DNA of 64,000 bases from positions 6,819,001 to 6,883,000 of the forward strand of contig NC_092579.1 of the NCBI RefSeq assembly GCF_037975245.1. Reading direction: 5' to 3'. The position numbers and the translations under genes were made by a program. This DNA is from Apostichopus japonicus (Eukaryota > Echinodermata > Holothuroidea > Aspidochirotida > Stichopodidae). The notes beneath the pieces are model-generated. The model was given only the letters and a program-made list of their open reading frames with translations, did no database searches and was not told the origin of the DNA. Shown in pieces: positions 2,978-50,277 of the stretch (the first letter of the stretch is position 1; each line of letters starts with the position of its first letter).

Positions 2978-5900
2978 GTAATTGATATTAAAGTCTTTGT
3001 ATTTCTTCCTGTATGTTGACTTGATTTATTAATTAATCTCACCCTCTTTAGTGACTTGTACTGTTATTTAGACTTGTAGTACAAGTACAACAGCATGAGT
3101 TACACATACAACAACCTGAGTACGAGTAGAATTAGGGCATCGATCCGAATTGAAAACTGGAGAGGGGGGGTGGGTACATAAATGATTGAACACGGATAAA
3201 ACTGAAGGAAGGTGTGCCTTGGCGCAAAAGCTTTACCTTGGTGCAAATGCTTTATCGGGTGGGGTCCAGGGGCGAAGCCCCGGCTGGGTCCAGGGGGGCG
3301 GACTCATCATAATAGCTACTTATCTCATAACATTAAATCTGACTAGATGCCAACATTTTAGTAAAACAAAATGAACAATGGTCAATGCATATTCAGAGCT
3401 CTAGCTATATGAGGGTATCATGTAGTTTTGTGTGGGGTTATGACAAGGTAAGTTCTTGGTTGCATGCCAGTACATATCACTGACCTTAGCCCTTCTAGAG
3501 CCAGGTTTTGGACTTCTTCACTTTTCTTCTTACCCGCAAAATGCTCATCCCCAGCTGGGGGTGATATTAGCGAGATGATGAAACTGGATTTTCAGCAGAT
3601 GTTTACGGGAAACTTAGTCGCCAAACTCAGTCGATTCAGTAAGGCAAAGATTCCCACCATCGCTGTCGTGAAAGGTATCGCTGTAAGTTACTACCTACGA
3701 GTTCCGATTTTGTTTACTTTTTGATTAAATTTTCCCCTTTTTCTGCAATCTCTGTATTTGTTGCTCTGATTTAGCTGGTGCCGACATTAAGGAAATGCAG
3801 AATCAGGAATTTTCTGACGTTTTTGGGGGAATGTTCCTTTCTCATTGGGATCAGCTATCCAGAACAAAGATACCAACGATAGCTGTGGTGACAGGCTATG
3901 CTGTACGTATTGCCACTATGTTCAAACTTTACATTGCATCCTCACTTCAGCTTTCAGCTTGTAGATAGGAAATAACTTTTGCTCTTTTTTTGTGGGTTAG
4001 GGCGGGGGGAGGGGTTAATTTTCCTTCATCATAAAATAGTGGAAATATAATGCTTCTCTGTGAAAAATATGCTGTCATTTTTGTGCATTTGTGTTAGCAG
4101 TATTGAACATGTTGTTGCATTATACCACCTTAGTGAGTATTCTAGACAAAATCACTCATCACCGATAACAGCTCTTTGCCAAATTCATCGAAAAATCATT
4201 GGATTCTTTTCACTTCTTTGATTCTGCTTTCCATCGAAACCTAAGTAATTCTGGGGACTCACATCCTATGTCAAGGATGAATGAGTATCAGGTTGTTTTA
4301 CTTTTTTTTTTATAAAAACACTTTCTTTTACACATGTCCTGCTCTTTGCATACAGCTCAATAATCAAGATAAAAGAAAATTAACATGTGAAGTTGTGAAC
4401 CAAGGACATAGTCTTCCAAAATTGATACAAAATCCTGAATTATCCTACTTTGAGCTTTGTACTATCATTGCACTGGGCCCATAAAGTTTCTTTATTTTTT
4501 TTTTAACATTCTTTTCTTGCTTGCTTTGAAGTATGCTTTGTAATTAATATATTGGTTATCGTTAAAATGCATCTTGCTTTGGCCGCACTACTGGGGGGGG
4601 GGGGCATGCAGGAGCAATTTCCTTCCCCCAGAATTTCCGTTGCCCACCCCCACCTCAGTTGTCCCCCAATCAGATCTACTACTTATCCAAAATATCTAGA
4701 CAAGGCTAATCATTTGTATAAGAAACAGCTTCCAATTGATGCAAGGCATTAATGTGAAATATTGTCAAATGATAGCACCATTTTGCGTCTAAGTCACTTT
4801 ACTTCTCTCAAAGGGGAGGGGAAGCTCCTTCCCTTTGGACCCCTCCTCCATATCAGTGTAATATGTTTTCCCCCTCCCCATAGTATGCCTTGTCCCCTAG
4901 ATACTTCCCACCCCCCCCAGATTGCCATGGCTGGTGCCGACACTGGGCTTTCATATGTTGAAAATGTCTAAATGCCCAGCTCACCCTTGCTTATTCTGAC
5001 ACATAGGCCAAGAGAGCTCAAGCTGGTCATTCCATAACTTTAAAGTTTCATTTGCGACAGTTTTGGTTTCTCTGTTATACAGTTCATCAGCTCCACAGTG
5101 GCTGTGTAATAACAGTACATTTTACTAAAAAGAGAGAGACAAAGTAAATGTGTATCAGCATAACAGACACGTCGTCATGGAATCTCTCGTGATGATAGAT
5201 TCGCTGATTATTTTTTCTGACGATACAAAGATCACAGTAGTTGCTATGTGTGATGGAGACATAAAAACATGTCACCTAGTCTGACCCCTGATTTACGGAT
5301 TCATCCACAATGTTATGACTCCTGACCAAGATGGTGCCACTTTGCGGCTTGCATATTGACTGAACAAGAAGCAAAAAATGCCACAAAAGGAAAAATTGGC
5401 TAGAACAATAGTCTGTGCTCAGATGAGAGGTCCAGCTTTGTGACCTTCTTGGTGTCCTTGTATGCATGCAAAACCAGCCGTTATAACCATTCGATTTGAA
5501 GCAAAAAGAAAATAGCATTTAGGCGTGGCAATACTAAATTGATGAAGAACAGCATCTGTTAAACTAAAACACAAATACGTCGTCACTCATGGGTGACTGG
5601 CTGTTTGATGGAGAGTATTAGAATTACAGTGGAATTGTCTTCTCAGTTCGCAGTGTACAGTATACGCGTACACTAATAGTTCCAAAACTTCACAAATGGG
5701 GCCGATAATTTCAGTGATAACCCATTTGTGGGATGAAATGCTGTGGATGTAATTAGCTGCATTAAGAAAATTGTCATAGCATGGATGTTTTATCCTGTCA
5801 GGGTTTTATTTCCATACGGTGAGAGACTGGATGCTGTAGATGTAACTAGCTGCATTAAGAATACTATCATAGCTTGCAAGTATTATCCTGTCAGGGTTTT

Positions 5901-8900
5901 ACTTCCATACGGTGAGAGACCGGATGCTGTAGATGTAACCATCTGCGTTGAGATACTGTCATAGTGTGGAAATATTACCCTATCTGGGTAACCCTTCCAT
6001 GTTCATAGAGCTCTGATACTCACTACATGGTTTGTTATTCATTATCTTACAGCTGGGCGGTGGCTGCGAGGTAGCCATGATGTGCGACATCATTTATGCA
6101 GGAGACAACGCCTCTTTTGGTCAACCTGAAATACTCCTTGGGACCATTCCAGGTATTTAATGCAAAAAGAAATATCTCAAATGTAACAGTGCTGTTTGTT
6201 TGTTTGTTTGCTCGTTTTGGTACAAATTGTGACAACTGTCTTGGTGGTTGCTTGAATATCATAAGGCTACTTCACTCTACATCAGATTCCTTCATGGTGC
6301 CTGAGAACTGTCCTTTAACAATTCTATTGTTTTTCCTGTTTGGCCCAAATTTGAAATTAGCTGACAGGTTAACAGTAATGAAAGGGTTGAGCATTTGTGA
6401 CAAAAGTATGATATTTTAAATTACTGATGCAAATTATGTGTATTGTTAAGAAAAGATCACAACTAATCGGTTGTTGTTCAGTTTGAAAAGTTTCGTTAAA
6501 ATTGATAAATCTTCATTGCCAAATTACAAGATAGTGAAATGATGGTAGAGGATGTAAATTAATCTGTTATTTTATTTTTTATATTCTTTAAGAGACAGCC
6601 ATAGTATTTTTATGTAGCCTGGACTATATAGTTCTTTTGATGCTATGAGGCAAATTTGAAATGATGTATTAAAAGCAATTGAGTAAATTTGTAAATGAAA
6701 ACAGTTGCCATGAAAATTCATCACAGACTATCCCACAAAACCTTCAAATGGCAAAAAAAAGTTAAAAATCATCAATAATATAGGGTAAACTTGACAGGGA
6801 TGGCAAATATATCTGGAGGTAACCCCCGCTATTTTTCTACTGCAATTCAATAATTTAATAAACTGGGGCTGAGTAATAGTTTTAGCATATTATGGAGGGA
6901 ATAGGGAATTATTAGGGGGATCTGGTAAAGTTGAAGGACAATTGTAATAAACTGTTAATTAATAATATTATCAGTCACACCCGTCATTCTTAGGACAAAA
7001 ATATGCAAAGATATGATCTCTGTTTCCTCTTATAGGTGCTGGTGGCACTCAAAGGTTACCTAAGGCCATTGGTAAATCCAAAGCCATGGAAATGGTACTC
7101 ACAGGCGACAGAATTTCTGCTGAAGAGGCTCTAACTGCAGGTTTGACTTCTAAACCAATTTTTCTTTTATTGTTATTATTAGTAGTTTTTAATTTTTTTT
7201 ATAGTCTTCTTTCAAGTCCATTTGAACCAAAAGTTTGTGTAATGGTTAAAAGTCTTAACACTGAAAATTTGTCTTAGAAAAGATTGCAAATATAAGGGTG
7301 GTTCTCAGTTGGTGTCTACATGGGCCAGAGCATAGGGGGCTGGACAGAACCAAACTATACTTAGATTGAGCAATTTCCAGGGTTAGGCCGAAAGAGTGCT
7401 CAAGTTGAGCCCCTTGTGGGCCTGAATACCTGATTAGTGCCAGATTGTGGGGCAATTTGTATAGTTACTGCATTCCTCCTCTTACCTGTATTCTTTACAT
7501 ATGCACTCCAAGCTACCTAGCCTACACACTGGTAACATTCTTGAACTGCGCCCTCAATGACCCTCAGTGAGGTCACAACTCTCTTTTTTCTGAATCTACC
7601 ATTCTGAAGACACACAGCATGTGTTTGACCTACATCGTTCATCCGTCTTAATGCTCTTGTAACTAAGGAAGTTTTTGTTGCTAAGGACAGAGTTCCACTA
7701 CATCCAACTCATCCAACATCCAACGATTCCTATCTGCAGGCCCGGATTGAAAGTCTTTTGCGTGCCAAACGTGGCCAGCAGGCCACCTGTTGTGAACCCT
7801 AGTATACTGGTTTTAAGTCTCTCTCTCTCAATACAAGATCCACAATGGTTTATTCTGGTTATATATGTTTGTCTATTTACTGTCAGTATTTATGGTATAT
7901 GCATGCCATGGTATATATATGTATATGGTAGATTCCATGGTGAAATAAACATGTTTTTCATCCATCCATGATAAATACAACCGTGAAGGCAATTTGAAAT
8001 GTTGATGATTAAGCTGTCCATACTGATTTGCTTTCTATAAACTTAGAAAGGGCTCTGCAATAAATATGTGTTTTTGTAAAATTGCTGCCTTGAACAAACG
8101 TTGGTACTACATCATTCTTGCCTTTTGTGTGTACATTGGAAACTGTTTTATCTTTTCCCATGACACCAAAATATGTCACTTGGAACAAAACACTCTTTTC
8201 TTACAAATAATGTTTTCCTTTCTTGTTTCTTTCACATGTCACGCTGTCTTCCAGGATTAGTCAGTAAAGTGTATCCAAAGGAAGAGGTTTTCGACAAAGC
8301 CGTCGCTCTCGCCGAGAAGATCAGTCGTAACTCCAGGTTGATCAACTCGATAGCCAAGGAAGCTGTCAATAAATCTTACCAACTTAGCCTGGCTGAGGGA
8401 CTTCACTTGGAGAAGAGATTGTTCCATGCCAGTTTTGCTACAGTAAGTCTTCAGTTGATATACAGAGCGTTGCCGCCAGAGACATTGAGAGCCAGGGTTG
8501 ACCCTGGCGAAAAATATGTCACTGGCACCACTTCTTGGAATCTTCATGTTTGCTCGAGTATGTCATGAAAATGAGAATGAATTATTTCTCGTTCCATATT
8601 TCTCCAGGCCCCCCAATTGACTTGACTCGCACCCCTCTCGTGGGGCCTGATTGTTGCTTAGGGAAGCCTCGCAAATCTAACCGCCATGTCCGGGCCGGTG
8701 GATTTTTCCGCGGCTATAATGAGCACAGCCACAAGCAGATAATGAGTCACACTTGAGTGCACACTCTCTCCAAACCACCCTCCACGCTATACAGTTACAT
8801 TCACAGCCGCGGTCAAGTTTTTACTAAGCCGATTTGAACATAATAGTGAGTTGAACAAAACATCATAGCTAAGTCTAAAGGTATTCAAACGTTTCAAAAA

Positions 8901-11900: not shown

Positions 11901-12682
11901 TTATAATGCAAACCCTCCCTTTGCCAAACCTTAGACCCCAACACACGCAGTTTTCAAATCGATTATGAGTTCCTCCAGTATGAACTGCTCAGTAAGTTTA
12001 CTCAGTAGATAGTTTATTCACAAAATCACTTCTAGTAGGTAATGTGCGCCATTTGCTATTTAGCAGCCCACTGGTAATGCTAGAAGTGCCTAAATTTTAG
12101 ATGAAGAAAAATGAGGCAGCAGCAGAAAGAGGCTGTGTTGTTGATTTTAAAATTGTCCTCGTCATATTTCCAGATCACCAAAGAGTGATTCACGTCTGCG
12201 AAGGCCTTGAAATGATTCAGAATTTAATTGCTTTCGTAAAGATAAATACCATCTCCAGGAAATAGTAATAGTATTCAACAATTTTGAGTAGAAACGAAGG
12301 ATTGCAAATCTGTCCAAATCTAGAAAAACCAAAGAAGTCACTCTACGTACCTTAAGTTTGCCACCAGCTCTGGACTGTGTCTTTCAGTAGTATGAAAGCA
12401 ACATTTTTGTAAGTCCAGCCAAGAATACTTTGAAATATGAATTGCTGGAACTTGATGATCAATGTAATCATAGGATCGATGGCATAATAAACCATCGAAT
12501 GAGTGCACTTTATCTTTTACCCAAAGTGGCGCCCAACGTGAGGATATTTTTGGGGTCTCAAGGACTGTTGGTTAGACTTCCATTTTTCACCTTTTTTTTT
12601 CCCCTTCCTCTTACAGCATGACCGAAAGGAAGGAATGGACGCCTTTGTTGAAAAGAGGAAAGCAGAATTCAAGAACAAGTGA
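2783..12682 (+). CDS. ECHS1: Enoyl-CoA hydratase, short chain, mitochondrial (multi-exon, first exon missing)
   Basis: Catalyses hydration of trans-2-enoyl-CoA to L-3-hydroxyacyl-CoA in mitochondrial beta-oxidation and branched-chain amino acid breakdown. Coding exons by GT-AG boundaries: 2783-2977, then either 3555-3682 or 3775-3902, then 6053-6152, 7036-7140, 8255-8442, 12617-12682 (TGA). All phases agree. The joined product is about 260 residues, matching mature vertebrate ECHS1. Visible motifs are [22 protein letters not shown] (oxyanion loop), [17 protein letters not shown] with the first catalytic Glu, [20 protein letters not shown] with the second, the hallmark [15 protein letters not shown], and the C-terminal [17 protein letters not shown]. 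The exon encoding the mitochondrial transit peptide was not found between 859 and 2782 and may lie left of the window. The tandem exon 3 duplication is the striking oddity. Family assignment is secure. Confidence 0.95.
3555..3682 (+). CDS. ECHS1: ECHS1 exon 3a (upstream, variant copy of the duplicated exon)
   Basis: 128 nt between acceptor CATCCCCAG and donor GCT|GTAAGT. It encodes 43 residues beginning AGGDISEMM and ending [12 protein letters not shown]. It is collinear with exon 3b and with the AGADIKEMQ...NGYA segment of mammalian ECHS1, but diverged: AGAD becomes AGGD, the following Lys becomes Ser, and the HWD segment is replaced by AKLSR. The open frame, intact splice sites and shared frame argue against decay. 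Length and phase equal exon 3b, so either can join exon 2 to exon 4; including both shifts the frame. Alternative use is inferred, not shown. Confidence 0.85.
3775..3902 (+). CDS. ECHS1: ECHS1 exon 3b (downstream, canonical-like copy)
   Basis: 128 nt between acceptor CTGATTTAG and donor GCT|GTACGT. It encodes 43 residues with the standard ECHS1 sequence: [31 protein letters not shown]. It supplies the oxyanion-hole Ala of the AGAD loop and part of the acyl-CoA pocket. The intron separating it from exon 3a is only 92 nt (3683-3774). Confidence 0.93.
5741..6000 (+). repeat. 93-bp tandem repeat, about 2.8 copies
   Basis: GCTGTGGATGTAA (5741) recurs as GCTGTAGATGTAA at 5834 and 5927, with the unit body (TATCCTGTCAGGGTTTTA, CCATACGGTGAGAGAC) conserved between the first two copies and decaying in the third. 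The array lies in ECHS1 intron 3, ending about 50 bases before exon 4. The rest of that intron (3903-5740) has T- and C-rich tracts and no recognised gene. Confidence 0.85.
6053..6152 (+). CDS. ECHS1: ECHS1 exon 4 (catalytic Glu, GGGCE motif)
   Basis: Acceptor ATCTTACAG and donor CCAG|GTATTT. It encodes [17 protein letters not shown] and [12 protein letters not shown], covering the second oxyanion Gly and both catalytic glutamates of the crotonase family. The Phe usually found before GGGCE is Leu here. It joins in phase 0 to either exon 3 copy. Confidence 0.94.
7036..7140 (+). CDS. ECHS1: ECHS1 exon 5
   Basis: Acceptor CTCTTATAG and donor GCAG|GTTTGA. It encodes [20 protein letters not shown] and [16 protein letters not shown], the strongly conserved central part of ECHS1. 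Confidence 0.94.
8255..8442 (+). CDS. ECHS1: ECHS1 exon 6
   Basis: Acceptor GTCTTCCAG and donor ACA|GTAAGT. It encodes [20 protein letters not shown], then [19 protein letters not shown] and a helix ending [10 protein letters not shown], the C-terminal helical part that packs in the trimer/hexamer of this family. Confidence 0.93.
8661..8698 (+). repeat. Left arm of a 38-bp inverted repeat pair
   Basis: Starts GGGAAGCCTCGCAAATCTAA. The reverse complement lies at 11863-11900 with about 35 of 38 bases matching. The pair brackets ~3.2 kb of ECHS1 intron 6, including the hAT element at 9385-11005. Confidence 0.8.
9385..11005. mobile_element. Non-autonomous hAT-like element, 1.62 kb
   Basis: Imperfect terminal inverted repeats TAGGGTGGGGCGATAT and ATATCGCCCAACCCTA, flanked by the identical 8-bp duplication GTGGGGTG (9377-9384 and 11006-11013). 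An 8-bp duplication and these ends fit the hAT superfamily. No transposase ORF is present. It lies in ECHS1 intron 6. A perfect 17-bp-arm hairpin sits inside at 10880-10917. Confidence 0.85.
10880..10917. repeat. Perfect hairpin, 17-bp arms and 4-base loop
   Basis: GTTGTTTTTAGTGTGTT, loop TGCG, then the exact complement. It lies inside the 9385-11005 element next to a GC-rich CCCC/GGGG stretch, and is probably an internal structure of the element. Confidence 0.9.
11863..11900 (-). repeat. Right arm of the 38-bp inverted repeat pair
   Basis: Contains GGCGGTTAGATTTGCGAGG, the complement of the arm at 8661-8698. Possible termini of an old element later entered by the hAT copy; no matching target duplication was recognised outside the arms. 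Confidence 0.8.
12617..12682 (+). CDS. ECHS1: ECHS1 terminal coding exon
   Basis: Acceptor CCTCTTACAG; encodes [21 protein letters not shown] and a TGA at 12680-12682. [12 protein letters not shown] is the usual C-terminus of the enzyme. The preceding intron (8443-12616) is the longest of the gene because a 1.6 kb hAT-like element sits in it. Confidence 0.93.
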   Translation, partial: HDRKEGMDAFVEKRKAEFKNK

Positions 12683-20147: not shown

Positions 20148-31236
<11,089 letters not shown>

Positions 31237-31730: not shown

Positions 31731-32903
31731 TACGAAAAATTAGTAATTTCAGTACTAAAACACCGTAAATGATCAGTTGGCGTATTAGAAAGGAGGAAGG
31801 GGTCGGACGGTACGCTTCACTTTTTTTGTATATTTTTTCATACCATTTTCCCAGTTACAATTGAGATAATGTCATTTCGTGACCGTGGTGGGGATATGAG
31901 GGTATGGAAGGTAGAGGACAATGGAAAAAGTAACAAAGGAAATTGTACAATAATCCTGAGTAATATGTATACTTCATTACACGCTTTCAGGAGTCGAAAA
32001 TGGAGATAAATTGAAAAAATGATGATGAAGATGGTGATCATGATGGCCATGTGTACCCTGTCCCGTGGCATCTACTTTTCTAGCAGACAGGGGGAGGAAA
32101 GCTATATAAGTTTGCCCTAACACTTTTGAAAACGGGAAGCATGAGTACGTTTCTGCTTGGCAAGTTTATTAAATTTCGGTTACATCCACAGCAGTGTTAG
32201 ATCAGCTAAATTCTTCGCATAACCTCGTACGAGTGTTCAACAATCAAATAATAAAACGTTCGGTTCATATGACCTCATCAGTGGCGTAGCTACGGGGGGG
32301 GGGGGGGCCTGGGGGGGGGGGCCGGGGCCCCCCCATGAAATCGGCTGGCCCCCCCACTGGCCCCCCCACTGGGAATGGGGTAAAAAAAATTGTAAAAAAA
32401 AAAAATTGTAAAAAAAAAAAAAAACTCATCAGTGGGATTCACTAATATTTTTTGTTCAATAATTTGGGAAATAGATTTACACAATTTTCTCGTCTGCATC
32501 TGGCAGAATAAGAATAATACAATATCTGTAGTAATCATGAGAATGGTCATACAGCATGGCATGGCAATGGTCGATGCGACGGTGGTTGCGACCATACACC
32601 ACGAACCTTGTGCATGTGCTGCGCGATATCGATATCTACCAATACATGTTATCGGTCATCGATTGGCACAAAAACCCAGATTCTGATGACAGCTGCCTCA
32701 AGAAACCCAATAAATGGCCTAATTAGCACCGAGCCACCAATGTGGACCATTACCGAAACATCGATGCGTGTTAGTCTTCCATCCCCTTCCTCTAATGTTA
32801 TTTAAGTCCACATGTGGGCATTTCCTGCAAACCTACCGGTAGCCCACAGGGGTTTGAGTTGGGAGAAAGGCCTTGACACCTTGAAACAACAAATGATGCC
32901 AAC

Positions 32904-33010
32904 CATAGGCGTACGAGGCGGGGGTGCAGGGGGGCAGACTGCCCCCTAAATTTCCAGAGGACAAGAAATTCGGGCAAAAGTCCTGAAAAATTCGGGCAGC
33001 CTAAGAGGAG

Positions 33011-33078
<68 letters not shown>

Positions 33079-34457
33079 TGCAGTAGCTTGCCCGAATCTT
33101 TTTCAAATTTTCGCCCGACAATTCCATGATTTTCTTTATTTAGCATCATGATGCCCGAATATTTCCGTGTAACACCACCGTAAGCGCAGTTCATCTGGGC
33201 TACCACGCTTTTTGCACGATCAATTTTTTTCTTCTAACTAGTCAATTGTATACCTGGACCAAGGGCGGCGGAACCGGGGGGCACAGGGGGCACGTGCCCC
33301 TCCCCCACTTTTCCTCAGGTTAGAAATGTGCCTTTTTTCTACATAAAACTTGAGGTGCCTCAAGTTAGCAAGAGGCCAGGGAACCAGAATGAACACTCGG
33401 GAAGGGCCGTTTCCGGCCATCTGAGGGGTTTGTAAAACCAAAACTTTTCTAAAAGCACGCTCCGCGCCAACCGATGGTGGCGCTCCGCTCAGATAGCCGT
33501 GCATACAACTTTGCAAATCCTGGCTAAGCCCGTGACTTTTAACGAATTTCTGTGAGTCAAACTCAAAGCATTTTCGAATGGAAAAAAATTTGTTAAGATA
33601 TTAACAAGAAAAAAACTCTAATTCGGAAGATTCCTACATTAGCAACTAGCATGATTTCACCTCATTTTGTCTCAAAAGAAAACTTGTTCCTTGTTTCCCA
33701 ATTTGCGCATTGGATATTGCAGTGCTAGTATGCATATTTTGCTTGAGGGGGGGGGGCGTTGATGGAGTGATGTGTATACACAAATAAGATAATACAATAA
33801 GAGTTATAAAGGGTACTGAATATAACGCTGCATCATTCCAATCGAATTTCTGCAAAGTGCCCTTTGATGTCGGTGCCCCCCCCCCCCAGATTAAAAGTGC
33901 TCCCGCCGCCCTTGACCTGGATATCCCCGACATGAGTGTATAAAAGAAACATTTTCTTTTTCATGGATGGTGGGGGGGGAGTGTCTATAAGCCTAGAAGT
34001 ACAGGTTTATCATATTCTTTGTTACATTTTATACTTTTTTGTGAGACAAATTGCAGTCTCACCCGACACAGCGACATTATCCCGCCTACGTGTCGTTGAA
34101 CAATGTTTTTCTGGAGGTAGCTGAGTACTGTGTTAAAATAATAAATAAGGTAACTAAATATAGCAGCTTCAAAAATATACTGTCCCATTTTTCCCCTTCA
34201 AAGTGATCTTACAATTTTTTCTTCTTCTAATTTACCAAATTTTTGGGGAACTGTAAATTTCTAAAACGTGAGATTATAAAATAAAGAATGTTTAGATGCA
34301 ACTTGCAAGGCCTCAGAAGTGCCGTTTCCGGCAATCTGAGAGGCATTGTGTGCCAAAAATGTTCTTGTTCGCTACGCGCCGCTTAGATAGTGTCACGGGA
34401 ACTTTCGGGCACAAAATGTTCTGCCCCCCCAAACTGAAATGGTCCCGTACGCCTTTG
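32904..34457. mobile_element. hAT-like element, middle level
   Basis: Termini CATAGGCGTACGAGG and GTCCCGTACGCCTTTG, with 8-bp duplications ATGCCAAC (32896-32903) and ATGTCAAC (34458-34465), one mismatch. It contains a (TA)n tract at 33029-33075 and matches 50708-51644 in reverse, except for the extra insertion at 33260-33914. Confidence 0.88.
33260..33914. mobile_element. hAT-like element, inner level, 655 bp
   Basis: Termini CAAGGGCGGCGGAACC and CTCCCGCCGCCCTTG, with near-identical duplications ACCTGGAC (33252-33259) and ACCTGGAT (33915-33922). The homologous site at 51272-51300 lacks it, a natural empty site. No ORF of its own. Confidence 0.88.
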
Positions 34458-36049: not shown

Positions 36050-36555
36050 CTAAAACAATGAACTAAAGCTTTTTTGAATGCAGCCCGATATGAGGCATTG
36101 GTCACACGCGTAAAATGAACGGATTGACAGCAGAATTCAGATAAAGTAAGGCTTGTCCAAGAAATATTACATTGTCATTTAACTCAATGATGATTCCAAA
36201 CAGTTGTAAGAAGGATAAACTCGTGAAATAAAATTGAATTGGAGAATTACAGAGAAAAGATACGAGCACATATATGAGCAACATTCTGGTTACTGCTCTC
36301 TGGTTTGCACGTTTCTTATTGATCAGTTTTTGCTTGTTAGACGACAGTGAATCACTCTGCCTTGATTTTCTTACTATCCAGAGAAATCCTAGGATGGATT
36401 GTTTGCCAGTGAGTCTTCTCTGCCGACATTGAGTAATCATCGGTAGAGGCAATCTCGTTTTCGCATAATAACGAATGATTACCAACATGTCTCATTGAAT
36501 CGGTCTTTCTAGTAAGTTGATGGATTAACAGCCCAATTGAATGTACCATATTCAA
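36050..36555 (-). pseudogene. Truncated class A GPCR, third member of the cluster
   Basis: The minus strand reads an ICL3-like stretch (YSMSAEKTHWQ), then in another frame SSNKQKLINKKRANQRAVTR, TM6 (LVSFLCNSPIQFYF) and TM7 (LLYLNSAVNPFIL), then a one-base insertion next to the NPxxY site that destroys the Tyr and shifts the frame before ASYRAAFKKA. TM1-TM5 are absent. The match to the intact gene at 37108 is very high, so the decay is recent. Confidence 0.9.
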
Positions 36556-37107: not shown

Positions 37108-38388
37108 CTACTTCTTAAACATGCAAGGAAATACAGCTTTCTTGAAAGCAGCCCGATATGAGGCATTAGTCACACCGTAAATGAATGGATTGACAGCAGA
37201 ATTCAGATAAAGTAAGGCTTGGAAAATGACCAATAGAGTGGCATTAAGCTGGACGTAGATGCCAAATAATTGCAATATGGATAAACTCGTGAAATAGAAT
37301 TGGATAGGGGAATTGCAGAGAAAGAATACTAGCCCATTTATGAGCAACATTCTGGTCACTGCTCTCTGGGTTGAGCGATATTTGTCAATAAGTTTTGGCG
37401 TATTGGACGAAGATATTTTACCTCCGAGAGTTATTACACTTTCGCGGGGCATGTTAGACGAGATTGTAGTCATGTGAGATTCTTCGGCAGACAAAGAATA
37501 TAAACTTCCGGTGGTTTGGGTCGACGGTACAATCGTCACAGAAGTCGAGAAGTCGGTTTCTTCTACCGCCGCACCGCGATTATCATAGCAGACCATGTCA
37601 GGTTTATGGGTAGATTCCCATTTCCGTAGTTCGTAAATGATCCTGATATAAAAGAACAGATTTGCGAATAAGGCGATATAAAATGGCAACGCTTGGATGA
37701 TACGGCCCAATAAAGATGCCAATTCGCTCACGCTTGTACACACGGCGATTCTCTTTGGAAAAGTATCATATTTACCATTTTCGGGATATAGCAAACAATA
37801 CCATATCGGTATTCCCCGGTATGGTATTAAACTCAAGACAATGATCACGGCGATTGAAAATGCTACTAGGAATTGTCTTCTTGTTCTTTTGCCACCGATA
37901 AAAGAGCGATGCCGTAACGGTTTGCAAACGGCGTAGTACCGTTCAAGTGAGATCAAAGTCATGAATAACAAGGAACAATAGTACGTTAATTCAACAGATA
38001 CATTGATTGCACATCCAGCGGAACCAAATATTCTGGAGTTGCTATCAAGAGTCAGTGGCGAGATGTACCGTAAATACCGCTCACCGAGACCGAGAACGAA
38101 GACACTGATATCGACGGTCGCCAGAGCGCAGAGATACTTGTTAAGATTGGTCCTCATGGAGGGAGTCTTCCAAACAACAAACAGAAAACAACCATTAGCG
38201 AGAAGACCAATAGCTCCTAGAACTGGTAAAATGGCCATTTCAAACGGATCGAATGTCCGAACATAATTCTGTAGTAAATCTTCATTTCGAAAGTCTAATG
38301 TGACGTATGGACATGATTCTTCGTCGTATCCGATATTGTCACTGTTCACAGATGTCATAGCCGTCGTGAAGTTCGCAGCGGTCGCCAT
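37108..38388 (-). CDS. Class A (rhodopsin-like) GPCR, neuropeptide-receptor type, intronless
   Basis: 426 residues in one exon, plasma membrane. TM1 ~50-73 (GLLANGC, the conserved Asn), TM2 ~85-104 (TVDIS), Cys126 for the TM3-ECL2 disulphide with Cys198, TM3 ending LERYYAVCKPLRH (ERY in place of DRY), TM4 ~171-190, TM5 ~223-250, a long ICL3 of ~90 residues rich in Ser/Thr, TM6 ~345-367 and TM7 with NPFIY at 400-404. The usual TM6 CWxP is CNSP, losing the toggle Trp. A short C-tail holds Cys for possible palmitoylation. Overall layout is nearest to small-peptide receptors (TRH/neuromedin-U group), but the ligand cannot be read from sequence. Paralogue of 48279-49556. Confidence 0.9.
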   Translation of the reverse strand: MATAANFTTAMTSVNSDNIGYDEESCPYVTLDFRNEDLLQNYVRTFDPFEMAILPVLGAIGLLANGCFLFVVWKTPSMRTNLNKYLCALATVDISVFVLGLGERYLRYISPLTLDSNSRIFGSAGCAINVSVELTYYCSLLFMTLISLERYYAVCKPLRHRSFIGGKRTRRQFLVAFSIAVIIVLSLIPYRGIPIWYCLLYPENGKYDTFPKRIAVCTSVSELASLLGRIIQALPFYIALFANLFFYIRIIYELRKWESTHKPDMVCYDNRGAAVEETDFSTSVTIVPSTQTTGSLYSLSAEESHMTTISSNMPRESVITLGGKISSSNTPKLIDKYRSTQRAVTRMLLINGLVFFLCNSPIQFYFTSLSILQLFGIYVQLNATLLVIFQALLYLNSAVNPFIYGVTNASYRAAFKKAVFPCMFKK

Positions 38389-39045
38389 CTTGGTTGAAGA
38401 TACTTACAAAAATCCGTCAGCTAGAAAATTTGGATGAACATCCTTATTATAAGAATGATGTAATGATACACAAGTGAATTCAATACATCCGGTTCAACCG
38501 ATCGTAAACATGAACTACAAAAGCATATTTTTGTGCAGAAACTTTCAAGACGATACGTATGAATTGCCTGCAATTATAGAAACGAAATTGATGTTCTTCT
38601 AAAAATGATATTGGGCCAACATTCTACAGCACATGAAAGATTGCACCGAGTGTCCCTCGTCTCTTCCGTGGAATTAGGCCTCTATTAAAAACAGTGCAGA
38701 CGTTTGTACTGTTGTGTCCAATATAGCGGGTAGGCCTATGCCATTACAAAATCCATTTGTTATGGACCTTTGTTTGGCTTAGTAATGACAATCACTAACT
38801 AAGGCGACTTATCCGCTATCAGAATGTCACGTTTCTGCCACCTTCACAAACGTGCATAGCTATTCTTCTTAAGAATCACTTCAAAAGGATTTTACGGAGA
38901 GGGTGGGTCTCTTTTGATAGAATGTGCTTGTGGAACTGGCTTTTGTAACAACTTCTATTATATTCAGTTAATTCATTGTAATCCTGTTTGACGACCGGCT
39001 CCAACTATAGGATTTGGAGTGCTTTCATTTTCCTAGTAAAAAAAT
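38389..39045. other. Upstream region of the first GPCR
   Basis: AT-rich, no ORF or repeat recognised. It presumably contains the promoter. Confidence 0.35.
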
Positions 39046-48278: not shown

Positions 48279-49556
48279 CTATTTCTTATCACGACATGGC
48301 AAAATAGCATTTGCGAAGGCAGCCCTATACGAGGCATTCATCACACCATAGATGAATGGATTCAAAGCAGAATTCAGGTAAAATAAACATTGACCAGCAT
48401 TGAACGCATAAGTAAGCAATTCATTAGAAATGACGATATCAAAATTGTTTAGAATGCTATAAACCGTATAAAAGATTGTGAATGGTGCATTACAGAGAAA
48501 ATACACCAATCCATTTATCATCAGCATTCTCGTCACAGCCCGCTGGTTTGACCGCTGTTTGTCGATAAGTTTTTGCTTGTTCGACGACAGCATGTCCTCT
48601 TTGTTGCTGACTGTCGTCAAACTATAGTTATGATGTGAATTTCCAGAAGAGATTGTCTTCACCGTGCTAGGCGATGCTGCCGTAGATGGGGTATGCGTGT
48701 CATCGGCGCCGGTTTGAGTCGCACTTACGCTAGTCACAGAAGTCGATAAATCAGTATCGTCAGTTTCGGATACACCGCGGTTTCTGTAACCCGTCGTAGC
48801 TGATTTCTTGGGAATATCCCACTTGCGCAGTTCTAGAATAATCCTGGTAGAAAACATCAGGTTTGCAAGTAAGGCGATATAAAATGCCATCGGTTCACAG
48901 ATTGCACTAATTATAGCTGCCAAGTCGCTAATGCTACCACAGAAGACGATTGCCTCTGGGAAATCATCGTATTTACCATTTTGCGGATATAGAAAACAAT
49001 ACCATGTTGGTATTGCGCGAGACGGTATCAACAAACTGAAAATGATGAAGGTGATCAAGAAGACGAATAATATTTGCCTTCTCGTTCTTTTGCCACCGAC
49101 GAAAGTGCGATGTTTGAGCGGTTTGCAAACGGCGTAGTACCGTTCAAGTGAGATCAGGCTGAGCATCAGTAGAGAAGCAAAATACGCAAACTCTGGCAAG
49201 ATCTGAATGACGCATCCGGCGGAACCAAATGTCTTGGAGTGAGCGTCGATAACGATCGGCGATAAATAAGCCAAATACCGCTCTCCGAGACCGACCACGA
49301 AAACACTGATATCGACGATCGCCAGAGTACAGAGGTACTTGTTGAGATTGGTCCTCATGGTAGGAGTCTTCCAAACAACAAACAGAAAGCAAAAATTAGC
49401 TGGTACTCCAATTAATGCGATGATTGGTAGAATAATCAGATCAATCGGATCAAACGAACGAGCAAGTTGAAGTACTAACGGTTCATTATTGGTAAGATCT
49501 AAGACGACACAGTTGCGATCTATTAAAGACATGTTCATCGTTGTTAATTCTGCCAT
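48279..49556 (-). CDS. Class A GPCR, paralogue of the 37.1-kb gene, intronless
   Basis: 425 residues, single exon. It shares with its neighbour FCFLFVVWKTPTMRTNLNKY, VDISVFVVGLGERYL, FGSAGC, SLERYYAVCKPLKHR, GGKRTRR, WYCFLYPQNGKYD, and a TM7 ending LNSALNPFIYGVMNASYRAA. ERY replaces DRY and the TM6 motif is CNAP. ICL3 is longer in Ser/Thr/Asp and poorly conserved, so G-protein coupling or desensitisation may differ. The N-terminus is short with an N-glycosylation sequon (NMSL). Same orientation as the other copies, consistent with tandem duplication. Confidence 0.9.
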   Translation of the reverse strand: MAELTTMNMSLIDRNCVVLDLTNNEPLVLQLARSFDPIDLIILPIIALIGVPANFCFLFVVWKTPTMRTNLNKYLCTLAIVDISVFVVGLGERYLAYLSPIVIDAHSKTFGSAGCVIQILPEFAYFASLLMLSLISLERYYAVCKPLKHRTFVGGKRTRRQILFVFLITFIIFSLLIPSRAIPTWYCFLYPQNGKYDDFPEAIVFCGSISDLAAIISAICEPMAFYIALLANLMFSTRIILELRKWDIPKKSATTGYRNRGVSETDDTDLSTSVTSVSATQTGADDTHTPSTAASPSTVKTISSGNSHHNYSLTTVSNKEDMLSSNKQKLIDKQRSNQRAVTRMLMINGLVYFLCNAPFTIFYTVYSILNNFDIVISNELLTYAFNAGQCLFYLNSALNPFIYGVMNASYRAAFANAILPCRDKK

Positions 49557-50277
49557 CTTGATTGAATTTAAAAGGCAGATCTTACAAAAAAAATTAAAAT
49601 CTCACAGTTTGTTTATTCTTCTAATACTAATGCACAACTAAGAGTGAGGTTTTATCTCAAAAAGAAGAAAGAAAAAATAACCCCTATGTCAGCAGAACAA
49701 TCGACCCGGTGCAGTGAAAAATTGTTGCTTCGTAAAACGGATCAAAATCATTTCTGCCAACTATCGAAACGCTCTGAACTACTTATTAACAATTTAATAT
49801 TATACAGCCGACGATTTGAAATAACGCATGCAAGCACATGAATGAGCTCGTCAATCATAATTTCATTCTACACAAAGGACTGTCAAGAAATGAAATGAAT
49901 TTGAGACAACTCCTAGCGAATCTGGTATATTAATATAGAAAATATATATGTTGTTAAACTATATTAACTCGATAGTGGTGTGCGGCCATATAAGGAATAT
50001 ATCGTCAATATATATAGCGAACGTAAAAAGATGGTTTCCTGGGGTATGGATTCCATGGACTCGAGTAATGCTATAAATAGATTAGCATATGCAGCCTGGA
50101 TCCAGTCTTTTTAGGCTACCAATTGTTGTTTAAGATATATTTGATAAGGCCTATTATGTCGCTGGCTAGTTGTTGGGGGAGGGGATGGGGGGGGTTGAAA
50201 AGATTGATGAAAAGTTTGAATGCCTACGACATGGCGGAGTTTACTAGTTTATAATAGGGCTATAGTGATGATTTATG

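Follow-up and report, generated by a model that had tools for sequence, protein, structure and literature searches.

Does the mitochondrial enoyl-CoA hydratase gene ECHS1 of the sea cucumber Apostichopus japonicus carry a tandemly duplicated exon whose two copies are spliced as alternatives, and how would the two resulting enzymes differ? We examined this locus within a window of 64,000 nucleotides (contig NC_092579.1, positions 6,819,001 to 6,883,000 of the forward strand), in which all coordinates below are counted. On the plus strand, the gene model joins exon 2 (2783-2977), exon 3b (3775-3902), exon 4 (6053-6152), exon 5 (7036-7140), exon 6 (8255-8442) and the last exon, exon 7, with the stop codon (12617-12682). 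The joined exons encode 259 residues that are fully contained, with zero differences, in P0001, a 297-aa database protein that represents 3 sequences and carries the NCBI name 'enoyl-CoA hydratase, mitochondrial-like isoform X1 [Apostichopus japonicus]'; A. japonicus mitochondrial enoyl-CoA hydratase is likewise the strongest database match of the ECHS1 product. The crotonase family PF00378 matched P0001 at E 1.8e-91 and isoform a (238 aa) at E 7e-79, and isoform a aligned with the solved structure 1mj3_A at E 3.5e-92. Exon 4 carries Gly141, Glu144 and Glu164 in rat numbering, assigned by alignment with 9rgq_A. Family match, best database match and catalytic residues all agree with the earlier note, which had called the gene ECHS1. 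A tblastn search of the window found no exon 1 (transit peptide).

Between exons 2 and 4 lie two consecutive plus-strand exons of 128 nt each, the alternative exon 3a (3555-3682) and the ordinary exon 3b, 92 nt apart across a short intron (3683-3774). Both are open, with AG directly upstream and GT directly downstream, and both begin in phase 1 and end in phase 0; exon 2, which has AG/GT borders of its own, matches P0001 and ends in phase 1, provides base 1 of the first Ala codon of exon 3. The two exons encode versions of the same 43-residue segment; 20/43 residues and 73/128 nucleotides are identical, and their BLOSUM62 score of 96 compares with 23 for the best of 20,000 shuffles. The annotated A. 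japonicus protein carries exactly the 3b sequence. The acceptor of 3a has a modest pyrimidine tract (10/17, versus 12/17 for 3b), and G is absent from position -1 of both donors. When we scanned 1666 six-frame open stretches of at least 25 residues in the window with an exon 3 profile built from 119 ECHS1-type proteins, the two exons scored at E 3.4e-25 and 3.3e-12; neither strand of the window held a third copy, the next profile score being E 0.18.

The reading frame accepts exactly one of the two. With exons 2 to 7 joined, 3a alone or 3b alone gives 259 residues and a single stop at the end, including both gives a first stop after 142 codons, and including neither gives one after 89. The earlier note had described such a pair, with equal lengths, these borders and phases, a 92-nt intron and a frame that takes one exon only, and each of these points was borne out. 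On the strength of the sequence, 3a and 3b are very likely mutually exclusive. The predicted RefSeq isoforms may already include a 3a form, given the isoform X1 label of P0001 and the 3 sequences that it represents.

The earlier note also suggested that branch-point crowding could help to enforce exclusion. The 92-nt intron contains matches to the branch-point pattern yUnAy at +34 (A3716), +42 (A3724) and +87 from the 3a donor, the last being too close to the 3' splice site (6 nt) to be of likely use. In excerpts of PMC7969005, exclusion in human OGDH is enforced by branch points located between +25 and +41, with a steric threshold of about 50 nt; the predicted branch points at +34 and +42, which are unmapped pattern matches, fall below it. 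The pattern can miss branch points, the sole match of exon 5 lying 4 nt from its splice site. The 71 nt upstream of the intron's 3' splice site contain no AG; a Markov model of introns 2 and 3 assigns such a run P of about 0.013, and at the exon 6 acceptor the AG-free run reaches 202 nt. Crowding that blocks 3a-to-3b splicing is thus plausible, as a prediction from pattern matches.

Folding of the 92-nt intron revealed no stable hairpin (z -0.96; 29/200 shuffles fold equally well). A scan of 2978-6052 for inverted repeats identified arms at 3029-3068 and 5108-5147 (40 nt, 78% complementary). We rejected this pairing as a means of choosing an exon: it spans both exons and hence makes no choice between them. 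The arms lie in the flanking introns and could join exons 2 and 4, or be remnants of mobile elements. Intron 3 of ECHS1 also holds two head-to-tail 93-nt repeats, 88% identical, at 5738-5923.

Elsewhere in the window, a palindromic stretch with an AT-rich core at about 655-830 and a similar peptide at 32798-33139 on the minus strand perhaps represent a dispersed hairpin-type mobile element. Two long minus-strand open frames at 37108-38403 and 48279-49601 encode rhodopsin-family GPCRs (PF00001, E 3.9e-27 and 6.4e-29); together with a GPCR C-terminal fragment at 36102-36491 on the same strand (29.1 bits, just below the 30.5-bit cut-off), they are apparently a local tandem family. The minus-strand open frame at 30467-31108, without a Pfam match at E 0.001, presumably resembles the N-terminal part of ALKBH5, and the one at 27881-28204, also on the minus strand, weakly resembles an MSL3 chromodomain (21.6 bits against a cut-off of 28) and may be PHF20-like.

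To judge whether 3a is held by coding constraint, we compared the two exons codon by codon and found identity at 29, 29 and 16 of 43 sites for positions 1, 2 and 3. As a yardstick, in 20,000 runs we introduced random mutations into 3b until it differed at as many bases as 3a does, a rough model in which a single branch takes every change, indels are left aside and transitions have a 2-fold bias over each transversion. These neutral runs retained a mean amino-acid identity of 12.5 and acquired a mean of 1.4 stops; 10 had at least 20 identities, 4,636 were free of stops, and 0 had both. By this measure, 3a does not look decayed, and its substitution pattern appears to be of the coding type.

A second 3a-like sequence came from a protein database. 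Searching proteins of ~131-416 aa with the 3a segment, in a database of 5.8 billion clustered at 90% identity, yielded P0121 (E 2.4e-5) as the sole match among 3 candidates. P0121 is a 145-residue open frame on a 1129-nt contig with an unspliced 3a-like exon: a 43-residue 3a-type segment flanked on both sides by intron-like sequence. This segment is identical to 3a at 27/43 residues and to 3b at 20/43. The exon has the length of 3a and, as far as the protein shows, the same borders; the Val-Ser that follows fits a GTAAGT donor, these borders being read from the protein and not from DNA. Neither the 3a frame alone (18.8 bits) nor P0121 (11.3 bits) reaches the 27-bit cut-off of PF00378. Judged by its sequence, P0121 is not an allele of A. 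japonicus 3a, because 16/43 residues differ; it probably comes from another species, or alternatively could be a second locus of the same one. The earlier note had asked whether the pair exists in relatives. Exon 3b is conserved beyond this genome, and an intact 3a-like exon is present in one contig, that of P0121, probably from another species, with no adjoining 3b seen there. A 90-aa profile query found no further 3a orthologue beyond P0121 (1 match among 15 candidates of ~50-157 aa), the E-value being uninformative for P0121 since it is part of the query. The 3a-segment protein search, which gave P0121 alone, showed no spliced product bearing 3a; a full-length 3a isoform could hide in a 3b cluster because it would differ at 23/297 residues and the database is clustered at 90%.

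We then placed both 3a copies in an IQ-TREE phylogeny of 21 exon 3 segments (43 columns), the other 19 being chosen from the 119 proteins. P0121 and A. japonicus 3a were joined at 98% ultrafast bootstrap. The pair attaches beside the 3b segments of P0001-P0004, of which P0002-P0004 are, as we infer for P0121 too, holothurian. A grouping of those four without 3a has 78% support, and the split of 3a plus P0001-P0004 from the rest only 63%, with 43 columns, a long 3a branch and little signal. Residue 128 is Ile or Leu in 4 of the 119 proteins, namely P0001-P0004, and Ile in both 3a copies, which fits a duplication of exon 3 that probably arose in the sea cucumber lineage.

By alignment with 9rgq_A, in which residue 32 stands opposite query residue 1, exon 3 corresponds to rat residues 96-138 and covers both the oxyanion/CoA loop (loop-2) and the substrate-specificity loop. 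According to excerpts of PMC13126182, loop-2 of rat enoyl-CoA hydratase (ECH) runs from Ala96 to Lys101, the Ala98 NH contributes to the oxyanion hole, Lys101 pairs with the CoA 3'-phosphate, and residues 112-121 form the substrate specificity loop above the acyl-tail pocket. The catalytic Glu144 and Glu164 and the oxyanion residue Gly141 lie in exon 4 and hence are common to both isoforms. As a comparison set we used the best 120 of 8000 scored database matches, minus P0007; this protein contains an internal sequence repeat and has Phe116 and Trp120 as well. Across the remaining 119 ECHS1-type proteins, thirteen columns of exon 3 are invariant; 3a keeps 10 of them and P0121 keeps 9. F116L and W120L are the invariant-column losses common to 3a and P0121: Phe116 and Trp120 occur in 119/119 proteins and in 3b, and both 3a copies have Leu at both positions. 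L117V, N135K and F/Y137I are likewise common to the two copies and occur in 0/119 proteins. A98G and K101S are confined to A. japonicus 3a, P0121 keeping Ala98 and Lys101, and D99E and M103L are confined to P0121; either set could reduce activity. Exon 3a is a variant exon of ECHS1, the Phe116/Trp120 feature being an empirical one and not a published criterion.

Passages of PMC5715344 report that Trp120 of the monofunctional hydratase corresponds to Leu75 in the peroxisomal enzyme MFE1, that the bulky Trp excludes a ligand conformation found in MFE1, and that MFE1 acts as a hydratase on long-chain and on bulky substrates, its rate on short-chain substrates being lower than that of the monofunctional enzyme by a factor of at least 10. 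In a comparison of the 3a segment with solved structures (26 matches at E <= 0.01), mycobacterial EchA8 ranked first at 43.5 bits, slightly above rat ECHS1 at 41.9, and rat MFE1 did not appear; the best solved-structure match of the 3b segment was rat ECHS1 at 76 bits. At the sequence level, 3a bears no special resemblance to MFE1. A gain in substrate range from W120L is uncertain, because wild-type rat ECH already tolerates varied acyl tails (excerpts of PMC13126182).

The reading we favour, with a probability of about 0.75, is that exon 3 is a tandem duplicate pair under mutually exclusive splicing, giving two ECHS1 isoforms with different acyl pockets. Exon 3 would have been duplicated, probably in the sea cucumber lineage, to give 3a and 3b, and both would enter mature mRNA as alternatives. 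The two resulting mitochondrial enoyl-CoA hydratases would have the catalytic glutamates of exon 4 in common, the differences falling in loop-2 and in the substrate-specificity loop over the acyl-tail pocket. Exon 3b would supply the ordinary enzyme; in the 3a form, replacement of the bulky Trp120 and of Phe116 by Leu would probably widen or reshape the pocket, which most likely would suit bulkier, branched or longer enoyl-CoAs. Exclusion would be imposed by the frame, through a premature stop when both exons or neither are included, and probably also by branch points too near the 3a donor for 3a-to-3b splicing.

Three other accounts have to be set against this. Exon 3a might serve a low-activity or regulatory subunit, in mixed hexamers or as an unproductive-splicing switch through double inclusion, with no new substrate range. 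The premature stop that follows from double inclusion and the A98G and K101S changes that A. japonicus 3a has in its oxyanion/CoA loop point that way, but the catalytic glutamates and the oxyanion Gly141 are retained in exon 4, P0121 keeps Ala98 and Lys101, and a mere poison switch needs no conserved 3a residues; we regard this account as unlikely. We give a little less weight still to 3a being a dead or decaying duplicate, skipped in every mature mRNA while 3b alone is used. That would agree with the alteration of Ala98 and Lys101 and with the full-length proteins aligned (17 database rows, including P0001-P0004), which are all 3b-type. Yet 3a is open and indel-free, has its splice-site dinucleotides and has diverged by coding-type substitutions, and P0121 contains an intact 3a-like exon with common derived residues. 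A decayed exon was rejected as the main reading on the codon-position pattern, the simulation and P0121. It is very improbable that the arrangement is an assembly artefact or a collapse of two paralogous genes: the exons next to 3a occur as single copies, with 3a on its own between them; the exon 3 profile detects two copies across the window; and P0121, from a separate data set, has a 3a-like exon between intron-like sequence.

If the favoured reading of two isoforms holds, the swapped part comprises the oxyanion and substrate-specificity loops of a central metabolic enzyme and the catalytic glutamates remain the same, which makes the consequence testable with two recombinant proteins. The replacement of F116 and W120 alike in two sequences is a natural experiment on acyl specificity in crotonases, and the animal may be able to switch which substrates ECHS1 handles. 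More tentatively, and with somewhat less than even confidence, we suggest that sea cucumbers use 3a to switch the acyl-pocket gate of ECHS1: depending on tissue, stage or season, aestivation being one example, the single gene would serve either ordinary short-chain enoyl-CoAs or, through a roomier pocket with Leu at 116 and 120, those that are bulky, branched or longer.

For the most part, mutually exclusive exons modulate channels, receptors and muscle proteins. Excerpts of PMC7969005 likewise note an enrichment for muscle and ion channels. The earlier note knew of no such exons in ECHS1, and our search of the open-access literature found no report of one, nor any that treats ECHS1 together with holothuria; among the matches listed, none paired ECHS1 with exon duplication. 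The kind of arrangement is known, and it is its occurrence in ECHS1, at the acyl-pocket gate, for which we found no report. One close parallel is vertebrate OGDH, the 2-oxoglutarate dehydrogenase E1, whose exons 4a and 4b are also duplicated mutually exclusive exons of a mitochondrial enzyme. There, branch points in the intervening intron lie less than about 50 nt from the 5' splice site (passages of PMC7969005), a feature that in ECHS1 is only predicted. The OGDH exons switch Ca2+ sensitivity, whereas the ECHS1 exon encodes substrate- and CoA-binding loops, and gene, phylum and duplication are all different. The alternative oxidase of the oyster Crassostrea virginica offers a duplicated, alternatively spliced exon in a mitochondrial enzyme of a marine invertebrate (CvAOXA/CvAOXB); the gene is unrelated, and part of PMC5589949 reports two mRNAs, whereas the ECHS1 pair is known from genomic sequence. 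The hydratase domain of peroxisomal MFE1 shares with 3a the crotonase fold and a Leu at the position of ECHS1 Trp120 (excerpts of PMC5715344), but belongs to a separate gene fused to a dehydrogenase, and 3a shows no further special likeness to it. Mammalian ECHS1 (crotonase; rat 1MJ3, 1DUB, 9RGQ) is of the same family and has the same catalytic residues; from the Phe116 and Trp120 of the 119 aligned ECHS1-type proteins, 3a departs by having Leu at both.
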